Shown piece by piece: positions 27,832-35,280 of a DNA stretch of 46,246 nucleotides. The DNA is from an uncultured Myxococcales bacterium. GTDB taxonomy: Bacteria; Myxococcota_A; Polyangia; Palsa-1104; JAEUJZ01. The notes below the pieces were generated by a model. That model had not been told where the DNA came from and ran no database searches. It saw only the letters and a program-made list of their open reading frames with translations. Made by a program: the position numbers and the translations under genes. Location: NCBI GenBank assembly GCA_937868485.1, contig CALMML010000390.1, positions 1 to 46,246 on the forward strand. Reading direction: 5' to 3'. Positions within the stretch are counted from its first letter, which is position 1. Every line of letters starts with the position of its first letter.

Positions 27832-29337
27832 ATGACGGACAGCGACGAACCAGGCTCGAACCGGCAGTTTGAGCCACCGCACACGACGCTGGGCAAATAC
27901 TGCCCGAGCTGTCATCGCATCTACGTCGCCCCTGAGTCGGATGCGAACTTCTGTGCCAAAGACGGAGCGCCGCTCGTCGCCAACCAGCGAATCTTTGGCG
28001 ACAAATACGTGCTCGGTGAGCCGCTCGGTTTCGGTCACATGAGCGAGGTGTACGTCGCCATCCAAGCCGGAATCGGACGCAACGTCGCGCTCAAGCTACT
28101 GCGCAGCGAACACGAAACCAGCCCCGAGATTCGCAAACGATTCGAGCGTGAAGCGCAGATTGCAAGCTCGCTGGATCATCCCAACGCCGTCACAATCTTC
28201 GAAAGCGGTCACACGAGCGATGGACAAAGCTACATCGCAATGGAGCTTCTGAGCGGCGAGACGCTCGATCGCGTCATCCAGCGCGAAGCCCCGATGCCGG
28301 TGGGCCGAGCGCTCGAGCTGCTGATTCCTGCGGTCCGCGCGCTCGCTGCCGCGCACAGCCGAAACATCATCCACCGCGACGTCAAGCCAGAGAACATCTT
28401 CGTCGCGCACAAGCGACTTTCTGTCGGCACCGAAGAAGTGGTGAAGGTGCTCGACTTTGGCATCGCGCGCGTGCTTGGTCGCAAAACAAGAGTCACTGCG
28501 ACGCAGACAGCGCTGGGAACCCCGCACTACATGGCGCCCGAGACACTGCAAGGGGAAGAAGCGACCACGCAGTCGGATGTCTACGCGGTCGGCGTGATGC
28601 TGACGGAAATGCTGACGGGAAAGCTACCGTGGGGAGAAAGCAGTCGGTCCGAGATCTCGACGGTGATGGCGCGGATGGTTGCGCCGCCACAGCGGTTACT
28701 GACGCTGCTGCCTGGCGGATTGTTTCCAGAAGATCTGCAGCCCGCACTGGATCAGTTTCTCTCGCTGACGCTGGAAGATCGACCCGTGGACTGTGCGGTG
28801 GCACTACAGGTTCTGCTACAGATTGGAATCAGCGTCGGAAGCATCACAGCGCTCAGCTTGTCTTCGCTGCCCGCGATTCATCCGCTTGCGTCGGGTCGTC
28901 AGCCCGTCAGCGCACCACAGTCGTTTGAAGGCGCGCAGGCGCTCAGCTTGGATCAAGCGGAGCGTTCCACCCAGCCGCTGCGCAGCGCCACAGCCGTTCT
29001 GCATGGAACGCGCGTCATTTTGCCGCCGGAGCGCTCGCGATGGCTTCCTGTGGCCGCGCTGATTGCAATCGTGGCGCTTCCGATGATGTGGTGGGCCAAG
29101 CAGCGACCGCCAAAGGTCAGTCAGCATCCCGAAGTGGCTGCGGCAGCGATTCCGGCTGTTCCCGTAACGCCGACCGCACCCGAGCCAGCGAAGCCTGACA
29201 CCCACGCACCTCTGCCAACCGCGCCAGCCAAGGGCGAAAAAAAAGCGCCCGTGCATAAGCACAGACGCCATAGCAAACGAACCAAGGCTTCCGGTTCTCC
29301 GAGCCTTTTGTATCCCCTCGATACCAAAGGCTACTAA
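27832..29337 (+). CDS. Ser/Thr protein kinase with N-terminal Cys motif and C-terminal transmembrane helix
   Basis: 501 residues. An N-terminal knuckle has Cys24, Cys27 and Cys41 (CPSCHRIYV...FCAKDG) with Asp in the place of a fourth ligand, close to the one in the kinase at 19668. The kinase domain (about 58-330) is complete: a glycine-loop variant GFGHMSEVY, Lys88 in ALKLL, HRDVKPEN at 181-188, DFG at 208-210, and GTPHYMAPE. The glycine loop has Met-Ser where Gly-x is usual (GxGxxG relaxed to GFGHMS). A Pro-rich linker leads to one helix (WLPVAALIAIVALPMMWWA), and a short Pro/Ala/Lys-rich outer tail ends the protein. The stop lies 4 bp from the 3' end of a convergent tRNA gene. Confidence 0.93.
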   Translation: MTDSDEPGSNRQFEPPHTTLGKYCPSCHRIYVAPESDANFCAKDGAPLVANQRIFGDKYVLGEPLGFGHMSEVYVAIQAGIGRNVALKLLRSEHETSPEIRKRFEREAQIASSLDHPNAVTIFESGHTSDGQSYIAMELLSGETLDRVIQREAPMPVGRALELLIPAVRALAAAHSRNIIHRDVKPENIFVAHKRLSVGTEEVVKVLDFGIARVLGRKTRVTATQTALGTPHYMAPETLQGEEATTQSDVYAVGVMLTEMLTGKLPWGESSRSEISTVMARMVAPPQRLLTLLPGGLFPEDLQPALDQFLSLTLEDRPVDCAVALQVLLQIGISVGSITALSLSSLPAIHPLASGRQPVSAPQSFEGAQALSLDQAERSTQPLRSATAVLHGTRVILPPERSRWLPVAALIAIVALPMMWWAKQRPPKVSQHPEVAAAAIPAVPVTPTAPEPAKPDTHAPLPTAPAKGEKKAPVHKHRRHSKRTKASGSPSLLYPLDTKGY

Positions 29338-29549: not shown

Positions 29550-30833
29550 CTACGCAACGGTGTAGATGCGGCGCTCGTCTTTGTCGATGCCCGAAAAGCG
29601 CGGCAAGCGGTCTGATTGAGCCAGCGCAGCACCCATTTCCGCAGCAGTGGGGAAGTCCGACGGTCGCTGATCGACGTTGGCATCGTTGCGACGTAGGTCT
29701 TCGTACGCAGGAATCGTGAGCCGCTGCCGATGAGCGAGCGTCTGGTCCACTTCCGCACGCGCAACCTGGGCCGCCGCAGTCGGCATCACGCGACCGGCAA
29801 AGAACTCCGCAGCGCAGCCCGAGCCGTAGCTAAACAGGCCGATGCGCTGACCGGATAGCTCGCTGGCTTGGTGATGCAGCAGCGACAGCAGGGCCAGATA
29901 CAGCGAGCCCGTGTAGATGTTGCCAACCTGCGAGGGCAGACGCAGCGACGGTTCCACTTGGTCGGTGTAGCTCTTGTCGGCGGCTTCGTCGGTCAGACCA
30001 TCAATCTGGCAGCGACGCTGGTGCGCCTTGCGAGCCATCTTGCCGTACGGAACGTGATAGCAGGTCCGAACAAGCGGCGAGTCATCTTGGTTGAGTCGCT
30101 GCCACTCGGAATACGCACCGGCGAGCGCATCGAGATAGCACTGCACGGAAAATTGTCCGTCGACGAGCGCATCTTTGCGATACAGCGGACGCCAGAAGTC
30201 GTGGACGTTTTGGGAAAAGGTGCCGCTCACGCCGGGTTCGAGCTGCAGCACACGCGGATCCTCGCTGATGAGCATCGCCACAGCGCCAGCACCTTGCGTC
30301 GGCTCTCCGGCGGTTCCCACGGAATAGCGCGCAATGTCCGTGCAGACGATGAGAGCGCAGCGACCTCGCGCCGATCCCGACGCCAGCCAGTCGAGCGCAT
30401 TCATCAGACCGGCGGTACCGCCAAAGCAGGCATGCTTGGTTTCGAACACGCGACAAGCGCTCGACAGGCCCAGCAGGCCATGCAGATACGAGGAAACCGG
30501 CTTCGAGTGATCGACTGCGGTTTCTGTACCGACGATGCATAGACCGATTTCCGACGGGGATCGACCTGACGCCATCAAGCAGCGTCGCGCCGCCTCGGTC
30601 GCCAGCGTCACCGGATCTTCATCCGCGTGCGCCACCGACATCTGCGAGACACCGAGCCCTTGTATGTACTTCGACGGCTGGACACCACGCGCAGCGGCCA
30701 GGTCGGTCAGGTCGACGTAGGCCCGAGGAACCGCAAACGCGATGGCATCGATCCCGATCGGTCGACGCTCGCCGTTCTGCGCGGGTTGCGAAGAGGGTTG
30801 ATTGGAAACAGAAGAAGCTTGGTCTTTGGTCAT
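29550..30833 (-). CDS. mvaS: Hydroxymethylglutaryl-CoA synthase
   Basis: 427 residues from the ATG at 30833, preceded by TGAGGA; an alternative start 42 bp upstream adds nothing family-like. A thiolase-fold enzyme that condenses acetyl-CoA with acetoacetyl-CoA. The catalytic triad is in place: Glu104 (GTETAVDHSKP), Cys136 (KHACFGGTAGL) and His260 (CYHVPYGKMA). The spacing is near that of Staphylococcus MvaS (Glu79, Cys111, His233, from memory). Roles in myxobacteria include the mevalonate pathway, the alternative isovaleryl-CoA route and beta-branching in polyketide clusters. No mevalonate, aib or polyketide gene is nearby to decide. The first 25 residues are a Ser/Gln-rich extension. It is divergent from the di-heme lipoproteins. 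Confidence 0.9.
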   Translation of the reverse strand: MTKDQASSVSNQPSSQPAQNGERRPIGIDAIAFAVPRAYVDLTDLAAARGVQPSKYIQGLGVSQMSVAHADEDPVTLATEAARRCLMASGRSPSEIGLCIVGTETAVDHSKPVSSYLHGLLGLSSACRVFETKHACFGGTAGLMNALDWLASGSARGRCALIVCTDIARYSVGTAGEPTQGAGAVAMLISEDPRVLQLEPGVSGTFSQNVHDFWRPLYRKDALVDGQFSVQCYLDALAGAYSEWQRLNQDDSPLVRTCYHVPYGKMARKAHQRRCQIDGLTDEAADKSYTDQVEPSLRLPSQVGNIYTGSLYLALLSLLHHQASELSGQRIGLFSYGSGCAAEFFAGRVMPTAAAQVARAEVDQTLAHRQRLTIPAYEDLRRNDANVDQRPSDFPTAAEMGAALAQSDRLPRFSGIDKDERRIYTVA

Positions 30834-31112
30834 GGCAGCCGTCCTCAGCAAGGTAGGTGCCAATGACAACAGCACACAAACGGAAGGCCCAGTGCGCGCT
30901 TGTCACTCGACAGGATGCGGCGTCGGCGGACACATGGCCGGACCTTCGCAGCACCCGCTCTTGCGATGTCGCACCGAAGGAGCGCCGCCGCACAAGCCAG
31001 GCGATCCCCTTAGCACCCCTATTCGTTTCGTAGCCTTTGAAGATAAGATGGATCCGGGGGGAAAAAGCGTAGGATGCACTCGCACGCACTGCATAGAAAA
31101 GGAGACGTGACG

Positions 31113-31616
31113 ATGAACCTACGGACGATTGTTTGCGCCCTCATGCTGGCCCTGCCGATTGCTGGCTGCGACAGCGTTGATCTTGATGCGGTCCCGCAAG
31201 CCAAAGTGGGCTGCGAGACCCCAACTGCCGAGCAGCTCAATGCCGGCGACGCGATGCTGCCAGGCCGAAACTGCATCTCTTGCCACGCATCCGGCGGTCA
31301 AGCCAGCGGCGAAGCGTTTGGCACCGCAGGCACGGTCTATGGCGCACGCAGCAGCAAGACCTGCAACACCGGCGGCGTCGATGGCGTCACGGTAGAGCTG
31401 CTCGATACGGCGGGCAAGGTTGTGGCAAGCACCACGACCAATTCTGTCGGCAACTTCCACTTCCCGCCGAGTGCAACCAACTTTAAGAATGTTTCGGCGC
31501 GGGTAACCAAAGGCACCATGAGTGTGAAGATGAACTCGGCAGTTGACGTGTCCGTCGGCTGCGCGAGCTGCCACTGGGCCTCTGGGATCGCGGGGGACCG
31601 CATTTACATCCAATGA
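31113..31616 (+). CDS. Di-heme c-type lipoprotein, first of a paralogous pair
   Basis: 167 residues from the ATG at 31113, with AAAAGGAG 8 bp upstream. A lipoprotein signal ends at Cys19 (lipobox IAGC), with Asp at +2. Two CxxCH heme-binding motifs stand near the two ends of the mature protein, CISCH (54-58) and CASCH (150-154). Between them is a beta-rich module with the repeat-like GVTVELLDTAGKVVASTTTNSVGNFHF, as in carboxypeptidase-regulatory or Cna-B type folds. Two more cysteines (34, 84) could form a disulfide. It should be an outward-facing membrane-anchored electron carrier or sensor. I do not know a named family. The paralog follows after 21 bp. Confidence 0.8.
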   Translation: MNLRTIVCALMLALPIAGCDSVDLDAVPQAKVGCETPTAEQLNAGDAMLPGRNCISCHASGGQASGEAFGTAGTVYGARSSKTCNTGGVDGVTVELLDTAGKVVASTTTNSVGNFHFPPSATNFKNVSARVTKGTMSVKMNSAVDVSVGCASCHWASGIAGDRIYIQ

Positions 31617-31637
31617 TGACCAAAAGGAGTAGTCACT

Positions 31638-32252
31638 ATGAGTTCGCATCGTGGTAGGAAGCCGCTCGGTCGGCTGTTGGCGTTGGGCTTTTGCGTGTCT
31701 CTGCTGGGGGTTGGAGCTTGCGGAAACGACGACGGACTAACGGTCACCGCGGAGGCCCAAGCCAGTTGCGTGGGTGAAGAGCCCACCGAAGCCATGAAAC
31801 TGGCTGGCGCTGCGATGCTGCCCGGACGCGTGTGTGGTGCCTGTCATCGCACGGGCGGCCAGGCTCAGAACTCACCGTGGACGGTCTCGGGAACGGTGTT
31901 CAAGGGCGCCAACTCGAGCTGTAACTCCACCGAGGGACTTCCCGGCGTATTCGTCGAGATCCTCTACGGACAAGACGATCCGATGGGCTCGTACCGGGCC
32001 GGCGCGCTCCAGCCCAACGGTCGTCTGAAGACCAACTCCGGTGGCAACTTCTACACCGCGCAAAAGTTCGTCGCACCGATCCGCGCTCGCATCTGTGAGT
32101 CGACGGGCGCGGACTGCAGCAGTGCAACACGCGTTGCGACGATGACGCTCAAGGTCGGAGCCGATCCGGTCACGGGCGCCACGCAGCGCGTCGACTGCAA
32201 CCTGTGCCACTACGCAAGCGGCCAGGCCCTTACCCGCATTTACCTTCCGTAA
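31638..32252 (+). CDS. Di-heme c-type lipoprotein, second of the pair
   Basis: 204 residues. AAAAGGAGTAG precedes the ATG. A lipoprotein signal ends at Cys28 (VGAC). Heme motifs CGACH (66-70) and CNLCH (187-191) flank a beta-rich module (GVFVEILYG...NSGGNFYT). It aligns with its upstream neighbour along the whole mature part: MLPGR-x-C-x2-CH-x2-GGQA, GTV, NS-x-GNF, and CxxCH-x-ASG-x-A...RIY. The insert is about 28 residues longer and has an extra cysteine pair (153, 160). Tandem duplication and divergence are evident. No cytochrome-maturation gene is nearby. Confidence 0.8.
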   Translation: MSSHRGRKPLGRLLALGFCVSLLGVGACGNDDGLTVTAEAQASCVGEEPTEAMKLAGAAMLPGRVCGACHRTGGQAQNSPWTVSGTVFKGANSSCNSTEGLPGVFVEILYGQDDPMGSYRAGALQPNGRLKTNSGGNFYTAQKFVAPIRARICESTGADCSSATRVATMTLKVGADPVTGATQRVDCNLCHYASGQALTRIYLP

Positions 32253-32377: not shown

Positions 32378-33817
32378 GTGATAAACTGCTACGTTGTGCC
32401 GCAGCTCTACTCTCAGGCGCGAGAAGTCCTGCTTAAGCTTGTGTTTTACGGGCCAGCCGGAGCTGGAAAAACGTCAGCGCTGACCCAGCTACATAAGCTG
32501 CTTCGTCCCGATGTCCGAGGCCAGATCGTCTCGGTGAATACCGGCGCGGATCGGACGCTGTTCTTCGACTTTTTTCCACCGCCACCGCCGCTGCTGGGTG
32601 CGCCAGTTCATGCCCAGGTGTTTGCGGGATCGGGAACGGTTCAGAACGAATCGACCCGTCGAGCGCTTCTCGCTGGCTGTGACGGTGTGCTGTTCGTGTG
32701 GGACAGTCGACGCGGACGAGAAGCCGAAAACACCGCCGCGATGGAAGAGCTGCGAACCTGTCTGTCCGATTTGGGCGTAAAGCCGCAAGATGTGCCGCTC
32801 GTGGTGGCGTGGAACAAGCGCGATCTGTCCGACGCGGTGCCCCTGTCGGATCTGGAGCCGACGTTTGGGATCAAGCGCGCTCAGTCGGTGCCGATGATCG
32901 CGCGAACGGGTCAGAGTGTGTTTGACGCCTTCCGTGTGCTGGCGACGGAAGCGCTGGAAGGTGCGCTGCGCAAGCGACCGGAGCTGGCGCAAAGCGGAGC
33001 CATGCCGACGAGCGATCTGTCGTTTGGCAATGACATGGTCACGGCGCGTCGGATGCTCGCCGCACAAGAAGCGCAGATGGCGCTGCGAAGCTTGGTGGGT
33101 CGCTACACGCTCGATCAGCCGCTGCGCATTGATGAGTCGGCGCTGGCCCGAGAGCAGGCCGGACGCTCGCAGGAAATGATGCCCGTGAGTGGTCTGTCGG
33201 CACCGCCACTGCCCGCACTGGAGCAGTCCAACGACGCGCTTGCGGCGGTTAAGCTCGACAATCCGACGGGCGCGCAGGTGCTGGAAGAGACGCTCCGTCC
33301 ACGACCGAATCAGCCACTGCGATCGACGCCACGACCGAGCGATCCGACGCTGGCACAGCCGGGACTGCGACCGCCGGGAGGAGCCGCGCTCGATAAGACC
33401 ATGCCGGGCACGCGGATTCCGCAGCGCAGCAAGCCGCCGCTCGCGCCCACTCCGCCGAAGATGGAGTCGAGCACGCGCGATCAAGGCATCAGCTTGCTGC
33501 TTTCGCCCGGTCCGATGCGTGCGCAAGTGCAAGAGGTTGAGCGGCTGATTCAGTCGACGCAGTTTGTCCAAGCCGTCCGACGATCGATGAGCATCTTTTT
33601 TTCGCTGCAAGTCAGTGACACCACGCGCGATCCCGACGAAGGTCCGGCGTGGCGAGCGCTCGCGCTGGGACTGCCCGCCGATCGCTACCTACGCTTCCGT
33701 CAGGTCGGTCAGAGCGCCGATGCAAGTCGCTCGACGGTGGAAGATGCGATGTTTGCGCTGTTTTTCCTGGTCGATGCGGTGATGCGCAAAGAGTCCACCG
33801 GCCCACGCGGAAGCTAA
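32378..33817 (+). CDS. MglA-like small GTPase with long C-terminal extension
   Basis: 479 residues from GTG 32378; another GTG at 32396 is possible. The first 200 residues are an MglA-type Ras-like domain: P-loop GPAGAGKTS (25-33), switch region NTGADRTLFFDFFP, guanine motif NKRD (146-149). The usual TPGQ of the PM3 region (TVPGQ in MglA, from memory) is replaced by AGSGT, and a run of five prolines sits in the switch region, so hydrolysis or partner control may differ. Residues about 215-380 are Pro/Arg-rich and likely disordered. The last 100 residues form a helical domain of unknown kind. MglA directs polarity and motility in Myxococcus; no MglB-like roadblock gene is adjacent. Confidence 0.82.
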   Translation: MINCYVVPQLYSQAREVLLKLVFYGPAGAGKTSALTQLHKLLRPDVRGQIVSVNTGADRTLFFDFFPPPPPLLGAPVHAQVFAGSGTVQNESTRRALLAGCDGVLFVWDSRRGREAENTAAMEELRTCLSDLGVKPQDVPLVVAWNKRDLSDAVPLSDLEPTFGIKRAQSVPMIARTGQSVFDAFRVLATEALEGALRKRPELAQSGAMPTSDLSFGNDMVTARRMLAAQEAQMALRSLVGRYTLDQPLRIDESALAREQAGRSQEMMPVSGLSAPPLPALEQSNDALAAVKLDNPTGAQVLEETLRPRPNQPLRSTPRPSDPTLAQPGLRPPGGAALDKTMPGTRIPQRSKPPLAPTPPKMESSTRDQGISLLLSPGPMRAQVQEVERLIQSTQFVQAVRRSMSIFFSLQVSDTTRDPDEGPAWRALALGLPADRYLRFRQVGQSADASRSTVEDAMFALFFLVDAVMRKESTGPRGS

Positions 33818-33898
33818 TCCCACCGAGCGAAGAACCGCTGGTTCGGCCCGCCCTCAAGTGTGCTAAGAGGGTGCGGTGCCGAGTCAAGGAACGCTGCG

Positions 33899-34687
33899 GT
33901 GAGTCGAGGAATCGAGGTCTTTGAAGCGCTGGTCCAAGCGGACGCGCAGACAGAGCCGGTGGTGCTCTGTACGGTGATTCGAACCGCTGGCAGCACGCCG
34001 CGTAAGCACACGACGCGAATGATGGTTCGCGCAGGCGGCAGCATCGTCGGAACCATCGGTGGCGGTCGCGTGGAACGGCAAGTCGTCGAGCGGGCCGAGC
34101 AGCTCCTTGCGATGGGTCCGTCGGCACAGAGCGAGCGTGTTCGCTATCACCTGACCCACGAGCTGGCGATGTGCTGCGGCGGCGAGATGGAGATCTTGAT
34201 GGAACCGATTTTCCCCGATCCGATCGTCGTCGTGTGCGGAGGCGGTCACGTCGGCAAAGCGCTGGTTCCGTTGCTGCCAGCGCTCGACTTTACGCCGATT
34301 GTCGTCGAAGACCTGCCAGAGCTGGGAAGTCCTGAGCGATTTCCCGACGCCAAGCAGATCGTCGACAGCTTCGATGTGCGGGACTGGAAAGGCATTCGGC
34401 TCGACGAACATACCTATGTGGTCGTCGTAACGCGCGAGCACTCGACCGATCAGGCGATCTTGGAGCAGCTTCTGCCGAAGAACCTGGCGTATGTGGGAAT
34501 GATTGGCTCACAGCGCAAAGTGCTGACGTTTCGACAGCGCCTGCAAAACAAAGGGTTTTCCGACGAGCAGCTTGCACGACTACACGCACCGATTGGGCTG
34601 CCGATTGGCGCGGAGACGCCGCATGAGATCGCGCTGTCGATCGCCGCAGAGCTGACGCAGGTTCGCAGCAGGCGACGCGGAGCATGA
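33899..34687 (+). CDS. XdhC/CoxI-family protein
   Basis: 262 residues from a GTG at 33899, chosen because AAGGA stands 9 bp upstream; the frame is open before it. The N-terminal XdhC/CoxI domain has VLCTVIRTAGSTPRKHTTRMMV and GTIGGGRVE, plus the conserved ELAMCCGGEMEILMEP. The C-terminal part is a Rossmann fold (VVVCGGGHVGKALVPLL, then YVGMIGSQRK). XdhC proteins bind molybdenum cofactor, help sulfurate it and hand it to xanthine-dehydrogenase-type enzymes. Its stop overlaps the start of a MobA-like gene (ATGA). No molybdenum hydroxylase subunit is in the window. Confidence 0.9.
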   Translation: MSRGIEVFEALVQADAQTEPVVLCTVIRTAGSTPRKHTTRMMVRAGGSIVGTIGGGRVERQVVERAEQLLAMGPSAQSERVRYHLTHELAMCCGGEMEILMEPIFPDPIVVVCGGGHVGKALVPLLPALDFTPIVVEDLPELGSPERFPDAKQIVDSFDVRDWKGIRLDEHTYVVVVTREHSTDQAILEQLLPKNLAYVGMIGSQRKVLTFRQRLQNKGFSDEQLARLHAPIGLPIGAETPHEIALSIAAELTQVRSRRRGA

Positions 34688-35280
34688 GCCAGGCCCTGAT
34701 CTTGTGTGCCGGTTCGTCGACGAGAATGGGTCAACCCAAAGCGCTCTGTTCTCTCGGCAATCAGACGCTGCTCGAGCGAATCTTGACGACGCTGGAACAA
34801 AGCAGCGCGCAGCAACCGATCCTGGCGACGATTGTCGTCGCAGAACCGCATGGACACGCGATCTGTCGCTGGCTTTTGGAAAGTCGGTTTCACTCGCTGC
34901 GTGTGGTGTGGAATCAGCGACCGAGCGATGGGATGCTGTCGTCAATTCAGCACGGACTGCGATCGCTCGACGAACGTGCAACGGGAACGCTGCTGTGGCC
35001 GGTTGATGTCCCGCTGGTGAAAGAACAGACGGTGCGAACGCTGTTGCAGCACGCGGCGCAGCGCTGGCTGGTGCCGACAAGTGAAGGTCGCGGAGGTCAT
35101 CCGGTGTGGCTGCCGGCTGCGCTGTGGTCGGATGTGCTCGCGCTGCCGGTGGATTCGTCGCTGCGTGCGCTGCGAGATCATCATCCGGCGCTGCGAATTG
35201 CCGTCGAGGATCCCGAGATCATCTGTGACATCGACACGCCGGAAGCGCTAAAGCAGGCGGATCTCCGACTGCGGCGGTAG
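34684..35280 (+). CDS. MobA/MocA-like nucleotidyltransferase
   Basis: 198 residues. The N-terminal nucleotide-binding signature ILCAGSSTRMGQPKAL fits the NTP-transferase group that includes MobA (GMP) and MocA (CMP) of molybdenum cofactor maturation. Further motifs are NQRPSDGMLSSIQHGL, WPVDVPLV (metal-binding Asp) and the late EGRGGHPVWL. Next to XdhC it most likely makes the cytosine-dinucleotide form (MCD) used by xanthine-dehydrogenase-type enzymes. Its start ATG overlaps the xdhC-like stop by 4 bases. Confidence 0.88.
   Translation: MSQALILCAGSSTRMGQPKALCSLGNQTLLERILTTLEQSSAQQPILATIVVAEPHGHAICRWLLESRFHSLRVVWNQRPSDGMLSSIQHGLRSLDERATGTLLWPVDVPLVKEQTVRTLLQHAAQRWLVPTSEGRGGHPVWLPAALWSDVLALPVDSSLRALRDHHPALRIAVEDPEIICDIDTPEALKQADLRLRR

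Follow-up and report, generated by a model that had tools for sequence, protein, structure and literature searches.

Outer-membrane cytochromes of the OmcA/MtrC type carry ten hemes, their beta domains alternating with pentaheme domains. The two adjacent proteins analysed here, P1 and P2, resemble them as lipoproteins with c hemes beside beta domains, but have only two predicted hemes on the flanks of one sandwich, and no MtrAB partners were seen beside the pair. Each of the two proteins has two CxxCH motifs, and the MtrC/MtrF domain reached 12.3 bits versus 30 in P2. With the cytochromes of the c7/c3 and doubled-CXXCH types (PF14522, PF09699, TIGR01905), P1 and P2 have the CxxCH motif in common, and many of their relatives show weak local matches to such models at the heme sites. 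However, these matches are confined to the sites, and the fold predicted for P1 and P2 is a beta-sandwich and not a small heme-wrapped chain. Cytochrome_C7 stayed below its cut-off of 24.8 in both proteins (P1, 15.5; P2, 14.8), as did Paired_CXXCH_1 in P1 (14.8 versus 20.6).

The carboxypeptidase-regulatory and transthyretin-like domains (PF13620, PF01060; 5aq0) are alike in the sandwich predicted for mature P1 residues 51-149, from which P1 and P2 differ by a CxxCH before the first and another before the last strand. The Pfam model CarboxypepD_reg scored 22.1 bits versus 32.3 in P1 and did not match P2. A weak match to choice-of-anchor V proteins (NF041895) in 23 of the 107 listed relatives, with P1 unmatched at that threshold, is a lead only.

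A different kind of likeness is found in gene order. In Burkholderia cenocepacia, lipid peroxidation is kept in check by the b561 protein LcoA together with BcnA, a lipocalin of the YceI type (PMC9113575). A YceI gene with a b561-like neighbour also lies beside close relatives of P1 and P2 (e.g., L057, L043, and L154), whereas neither these genes nor barrel genes were found beside the pair itself. Compared with LcoA-BcnA, the sets of the relatives add a diheme lipoprotein as a third gene, and their b561-like protein has no convincing match in Pfam or NCBIfam.

Neither P1 nor P2 scored above any cut-off in Pfam and NCBIfam, no single model of these libraries spans the family among its 107 listed relatives, and a literature search on YceI with Myxococcota and cytochrome c, or on transthyretin-like c-type cytochromes, returned nothing on the P1/P2 family. 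No description of the pair, which a preliminary description had put forward as a candidate for an undescribed system, was thus found in the libraries and literature covered; it is a variant of c-type cytochrome and not a new kind.

The tandem genes and their neighbours

The window, i.e., the whole stretch of DNA analysed, comprises 46,246 nucleotides from an uncultured Myxococcales bacterium. P1 (31113..31616; 31113-31613 plus stop; 167 aa) and P2 (31638..32252; 31638-32249 plus stop; 204 aa) are tandem ORFs on the forward strand. A ribosome-binding site, AAAAGGAG, precedes each of them (31097-31104 and 31622-31629, respectively). P2 is a paralog of P1, with 40% identity over residues 8-166 (E 2.7e-12), and orthologs of P1 were found at 90% and 77% identity. 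In comparisons with two congeners by the Nei-Gojobori method, dN/dS was 0.10-0.17 for P1 and 0.08-0.10 for P2, indicating purifying selection and, therefore, that both are real, constrained genes. No promoter was found for the pair, and terminator-like sites were not above chance.

The predicted P1 protein carries a lipobox, IAGC (31158..31169, +), which is retained in orthologs and whose Cys19 would be mature residue 1. It is followed by Met48 (31254..31256, +), six residues ahead of the predicted heme site 1, C54-I-S-C-H58 (CISCH; 31272..31286, +), by a transthyretin/CarboxypepD_reg-like beta domain (31323..31547, +), Met140 (31530..31532, +), the predicted heme site 2, C150-A-S-C-H154 (CASCH; 31560..31574, +), and the predicted last beta strand, RIYIQ (31599..31613, +). 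P2 repeats this arrangement on the same strand, with a predicted lipidated Cys28 (lipobox VGA-C28; 31719..31721), Met60 (31815-31817) ahead of the predicted site 1, C66-G-A-C-H70 (CGACH; 31833..31847), and Met169 (32142-32144) ahead of the predicted site 2, C187-N-L-C-H191 (CNLCH; 32196..32210). The C-terminal ends are alike, with RIYIQ in P1 and RIYLP in P2, i.e., RIY(I/L) in both. The ORFs, their identity, and their dN/dS values thus bear out the initial observation of two adjacent paralogs that each combine a lipobox, CxxCH, a beta-rich insert, and a second CxxCH.

The neighbour kept with the pair is a divergent mvaS-type HMG-CoA synthase gene (29550..30875, −; TIGR01835, 362.3 bits versus a cut-off of 360.35), which adjoins it in the source genome (G000) as well as in G001, G002, and G005, and in G004 is one gene removed from it. 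The P1-like and P2-like genes of G003 do not lie together. An MglA-like GTPase gene downstream (32378..33817, +; weak Arf/DO-GTPase2 matches) had been considered as a possible constant partner. It accompanies the pair within the genus only (G001 and G002) and is absent beside it in G004 and G005, so that the proposed link was dropped. Porins, the other partners envisaged, do not adjoin P1 or P2 either, though outer-membrane barrels adjoin other family members. Elsewhere in the window, genes for molybdenum cofactor maturation, of the XdhC family and MocA-like, adjoin each other (33860-35280), with no oxidoreductase recognised among the neighbours scanned, and a Ser/Thr kinase (27832-29337) has an N-terminal CPSCH within a zinc-ribbon-like stretch, a heme-motif look-alike.

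The residue at position +2 of the lipoproteins, Asp in P1 and Gly in P2, had been read as a sign that the two may be sorted to different membranes; P1 would stay in the inner and P2 reach the outer membrane, with electrons relayed across the periplasm. This difference is found in G000 and G002. However, it is lost within the genus, as P1 also has Gly in G001, where P2 has Gly, and it is reversed in G005, with Gly in P1 and Asp in P2. Moreover, in Myxococcus xanthus +2 Lys is favoured by inner-membrane and +7 Ala by matrix lipoproteins, whereas no signal was seen for outer-membrane lipoproteins (PMC3222651). P1 and P2 have neither +2 Lys nor +7 Ala and are therefore both predicted at the outer membrane by default; +2 Lys was absent from all family members with a recognised lipobox. 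With the sorting difference abandoned on these grounds, we regard a two-membrane relay as most improbable.

Predicted fold and the case for heme

AlphaFold models of P1 (pLDDT 86.4, pTM 0.83) and P2 (pLDDT 76.6) suggest that both proteins adopt a sandwich like that of transthyretin and of the carboxypeptidase regulatory domain. For mature P1, about residues 51-149 matched transthyretin and carboxypeptidase D domains in VIA with Z 6-7, among them 5aq0_B (carboxypeptidase D; Z 6.9, rmsd 2.4, 75 aligned), and P2 fell into the same fold class with Z 5.5-6.3. For both proteins, these values are below 8 and may reflect a common arrangement. Many VIA rows of both proteins belong to the transthyretin/carboxypeptidase D class. 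In line with this, CarboxypepD_reg was matched in 42 of the 107 listed relatives (E up to 0.01), and SdrD_B, bMG3, and CarboxypepD_reg matched P1 below their cut-offs. Foldseek alone gave no match below E 0.001. A profile search of the PDB returned no credible relative, its hemagglutinin rows covering only beta strands with E >0.05. Together, the models, the VIA rows, and the matches of the relatives support the suggestion that a beta domain of the regulatory type separates the two CxxCH motifs.

In an alignment of the AlphaFold model, site 1 comes just ahead of the first strand and site 2 falls in the loop that leads into the last one, which is modelled near residues 146-147; the match to transthyretin extends to residue 112 of that protein. 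Thus, the statement that heme motifs lie at both ends of the insert holds for the sequence but probably not for the fold. Ig-like sandwiches, including that of transthyretin, have adjacent and parallel first and last strands. By this strand order, the two hemes of P1 and likewise those of P2 would probably be found at the same end.

Most of the 107 relatives used for conservation were drawn by a DNA pattern in which Met, PG, site 1, and GNF were fixed. These columns are therefore conserved by construction, while M122, site 2, and G55 (numbered as in mature P1) are independent of it. Invariant among these listed relatives are the four motif Cys, both motif His, M122, G55, and G95-N96-F97, and for the residues outside the search pattern, i.e., G55, M122, and the second CxxCH, such invariance is far beyond chance. 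Met140 of P1, a candidate axial ligand ahead of site 2, is accordingly present in 107 of 107. Practically all members of the similarity-drawn set keep site 2 as CxxCH or CX4CH, with a single loss in L069 (CNMHH).

Several lines of evidence point to heme at these sites. The spacing CX4CH, which is known from cytochrome c3, replaces CxxCH in five relatives, at site 1 in two of them (L056 and L076) and at site 2 in L067, L068, and L073. As it is not expected of a bare disulfide, this variant counts for heme. Six residues before site 1, where P1 has Met48, most similarity-drawn relatives have Met and an HRPGQPC-type group has His, the His forms falling largely into one clade of the tree; L068 has its Met displaced by one position. 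Such a swap between Met and His is what an axial ligand should show and therefore also supports heme. Furthermore, an N-terminal cytochrome c domain is fused to the family domain in L057 (3594-4607) and L136, and L103 (2823-4151), from a MAG titled Alphaproteobacteria, has eight CxxCH in total with the diheme domain at its C-terminus. The source genome encodes three Cytochrom_C_asm proteins above the cut-off, so that P1 and P2 present the features of c-type cytochromes: conserved CxxCH/CX4CH sites with His, Met/His ligand candidates, and a lipobox together with maturation genes.

Alternatively, the CxxCH motifs could be redox disulfides or metal sites in an adhesion-type beta domain without heme, in keeping with the matches to SdrD_B and CarboxypepD_reg, which are also known in surface proteins, and with extra conserved Cys that suggest disulfides in the family. 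An additional Cys pair, at mature position 16 and near 66, is present together in 78 of the 107 listed relatives and may, judging by this pattern, form a disulfide. Yet the invariant His of both motifs, the CX4CH variants, the Met/His exchange, the cytochrome c fusions, and the maturation genes all speak against a heme-free protein and make it very unlikely. The same evidence upholds the initial assignment of the near-invariant motifs as heme-type sites, and we consider it highly probable, from sequence, that P1 and P2 are diheme c-type cytochromes.

Distribution and gene settings of the family

Six family members are encoded in the source genome, two in the window and two each on contigs C12 and C190. 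A profile search of 282 genomes from across the phylum Myxococcota detected the family in 91, and a similarity search gave matches in 27 of 58 genomes. Scanning GTDB representatives with the DNA pattern yielded at least 113 stretches, with a family ORF in 112 of those listed, and the taxonomic titles of the listed matches are mostly Myxococcota or their older names. Members L122, L156, L163, and L184 come from MAGs titled Spirochaetaceae, which could reflect transfer out of Myxococcota or mis-titled MAGs. Cultured carriers include Corallococcus, Pyxidicoccus, Myxococcus sp., and Citreicoccus, so the family is open to bench testing. In a tree of 154 domains, whose deep branches are uncertain, P1 and P2 fall into an MLPGR group together with YceI/b561-linked lipoproteins of the same GTDB family.

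Three gene settings recur among the relatives, counted as raw occurrences from gene calls of a simple script that missed or overextended a few ORFs. The first combines a b561-like gene, a YceI gene, and a family member, and is found in the source genome (L057) and in L040, L043, L118, L139, and L154, among others. On contig C12 of the source genome, the b561-like four-helix protein, YceI, and the diheme lipoprotein are encoded in a row on the forward strand (L057:4789-6721). Four His of the b561-like protein are invariant in ten of ten sequences, one near each hydrophobic segment, and YceI scores above its Pfam cut-off.

In the second setting, a DUF3570 barrel adjoins the family member, often together with a CX4CH lipoprotein (CxTLDCHG), as in L046, L047 (7706-11147), L053, L061, L070, L074, and L102. 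The members there mostly have His instead of Met before site 1. The source genome has the DUF3570 barrel beside a family member on contig C190 (L058) without the CX4CH lipoprotein. The third setting comprises a barrel with its own CxxCH, sometimes accompanied by YceI (L076, L096, L100, L113, L133, L138, L170, and L179). These heme-motif barrels recall the fused porin cytochromes of the Cyc2 type. Barrel-like proteins of this kind are encoded at L100:726-1922, L138:4069-5289, L170:1547-2848, and L113:1705-2910, and their N-terminal motif has the form PWMIRHxYxxCxxCHxDPSGxGxLTxYGR. Those tested gave no Pfam or NCBIfam match, and a search of the source genome with one protein query found no relative of the heme barrel.

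The diversity of neighbours, the N-terminal fusions, and the several copies per genome could also suit a heme-based sensor or redox switch, in which the sandwich would be a regulatory module whose partner binding is set by the redox state or ligand of the heme. No signalling output domain was found in the relatives examined, however, and the recurrent neighbours are electron-transfer proteins and barrels, which leaves such a sensor very improbable. The family often adjoins genes for membrane electron transfer or outer-membrane pores and so probably constitutes an electron carrier that recurs in the envelope of myxobacteria.

Proposed electron path

We propose that each sandwich of P1 and P2 would hold two covalently bound hemes, one ahead of the first strand and the other in the loop that leads into the last. 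For each heme, one axial ligand would be the motif His and the second probably a conserved Met, or at site 1 either Met or His. Located at one end of the sandwich, the two hemes could be close enough for electrons to pass between them. In the sets of three genes, electrons would flow from quinol to the four-helix b-heme membrane protein, on to YceI with a bound isoprenoid quinone, and from there to the diheme lipoprotein, which would deliver them to an acceptor located either at the outer membrane or on the surface of the cell. P1 and P2 themselves would be a duplicated, separately placed offshoot of the carrier in these b561-like/YceI/diheme-lipoprotein sets. No b561, YceI, or barrel gene lies beside them, and it is by kinship that they would belong to this chain.

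On balance, we favour this explanation as a whole, namely that P1 and P2 are outer-membrane diheme cytochromes derived from the carrier of a quinol-b561-YceI-lipoprotein chain, and hold it to be reasonably likely; that they act as envelope electron carriers of the quinone-linked kind appears about equally plausible. A broader version, in which the family provides minimal outer-membrane electron carriers throughout the phylum by joining a sandwich with two neighbouring hemes at one end to differing partners (b561 and YceI, a DUF3570 barrel with the CX4CH lipoprotein, or a heme-site barrel), is offered tentatively, as less likely than not.

The main rival to a respiratory-type carrier is a protective role, as the b561/YceI part resembles the LcoA-BcnA defence against lipid peroxidation. 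The cytochromes would then take electrons from an LcoA/BcnA-like pair and, at the outer membrane, scavenge peroxides or the peroxyl radicals of lipids, a possibility to which the YceI and b561-like proteins beside close relatives lend support. In the available part of PMC9113575, however, LcoA-BcnA is described without a c-type cytochrome, and other family members adjoin outer-membrane barrels instead, so that we judge this role rather unlikely, although less so than the other alternatives considered above.

If the electron-carrier reading is true, cytochromes that are built on a transthyretin-like sandwich, are used multiply within one phylum, and are not represented in the searched family libraries would add an architecture to the heme proteins and indicate a so far unrecognised electron transfer in the envelope of myxobacteria. 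The recurrent b561-YceI-diheme arrangement yields a testable proposal for the electron recipient of YceI lipocalins. Should the phylum-wide version also be true, it would represent a new, non-Mtr electron path across the myxobacterial envelope, with the YceI-bound quinone as a periplasmic shuttle.
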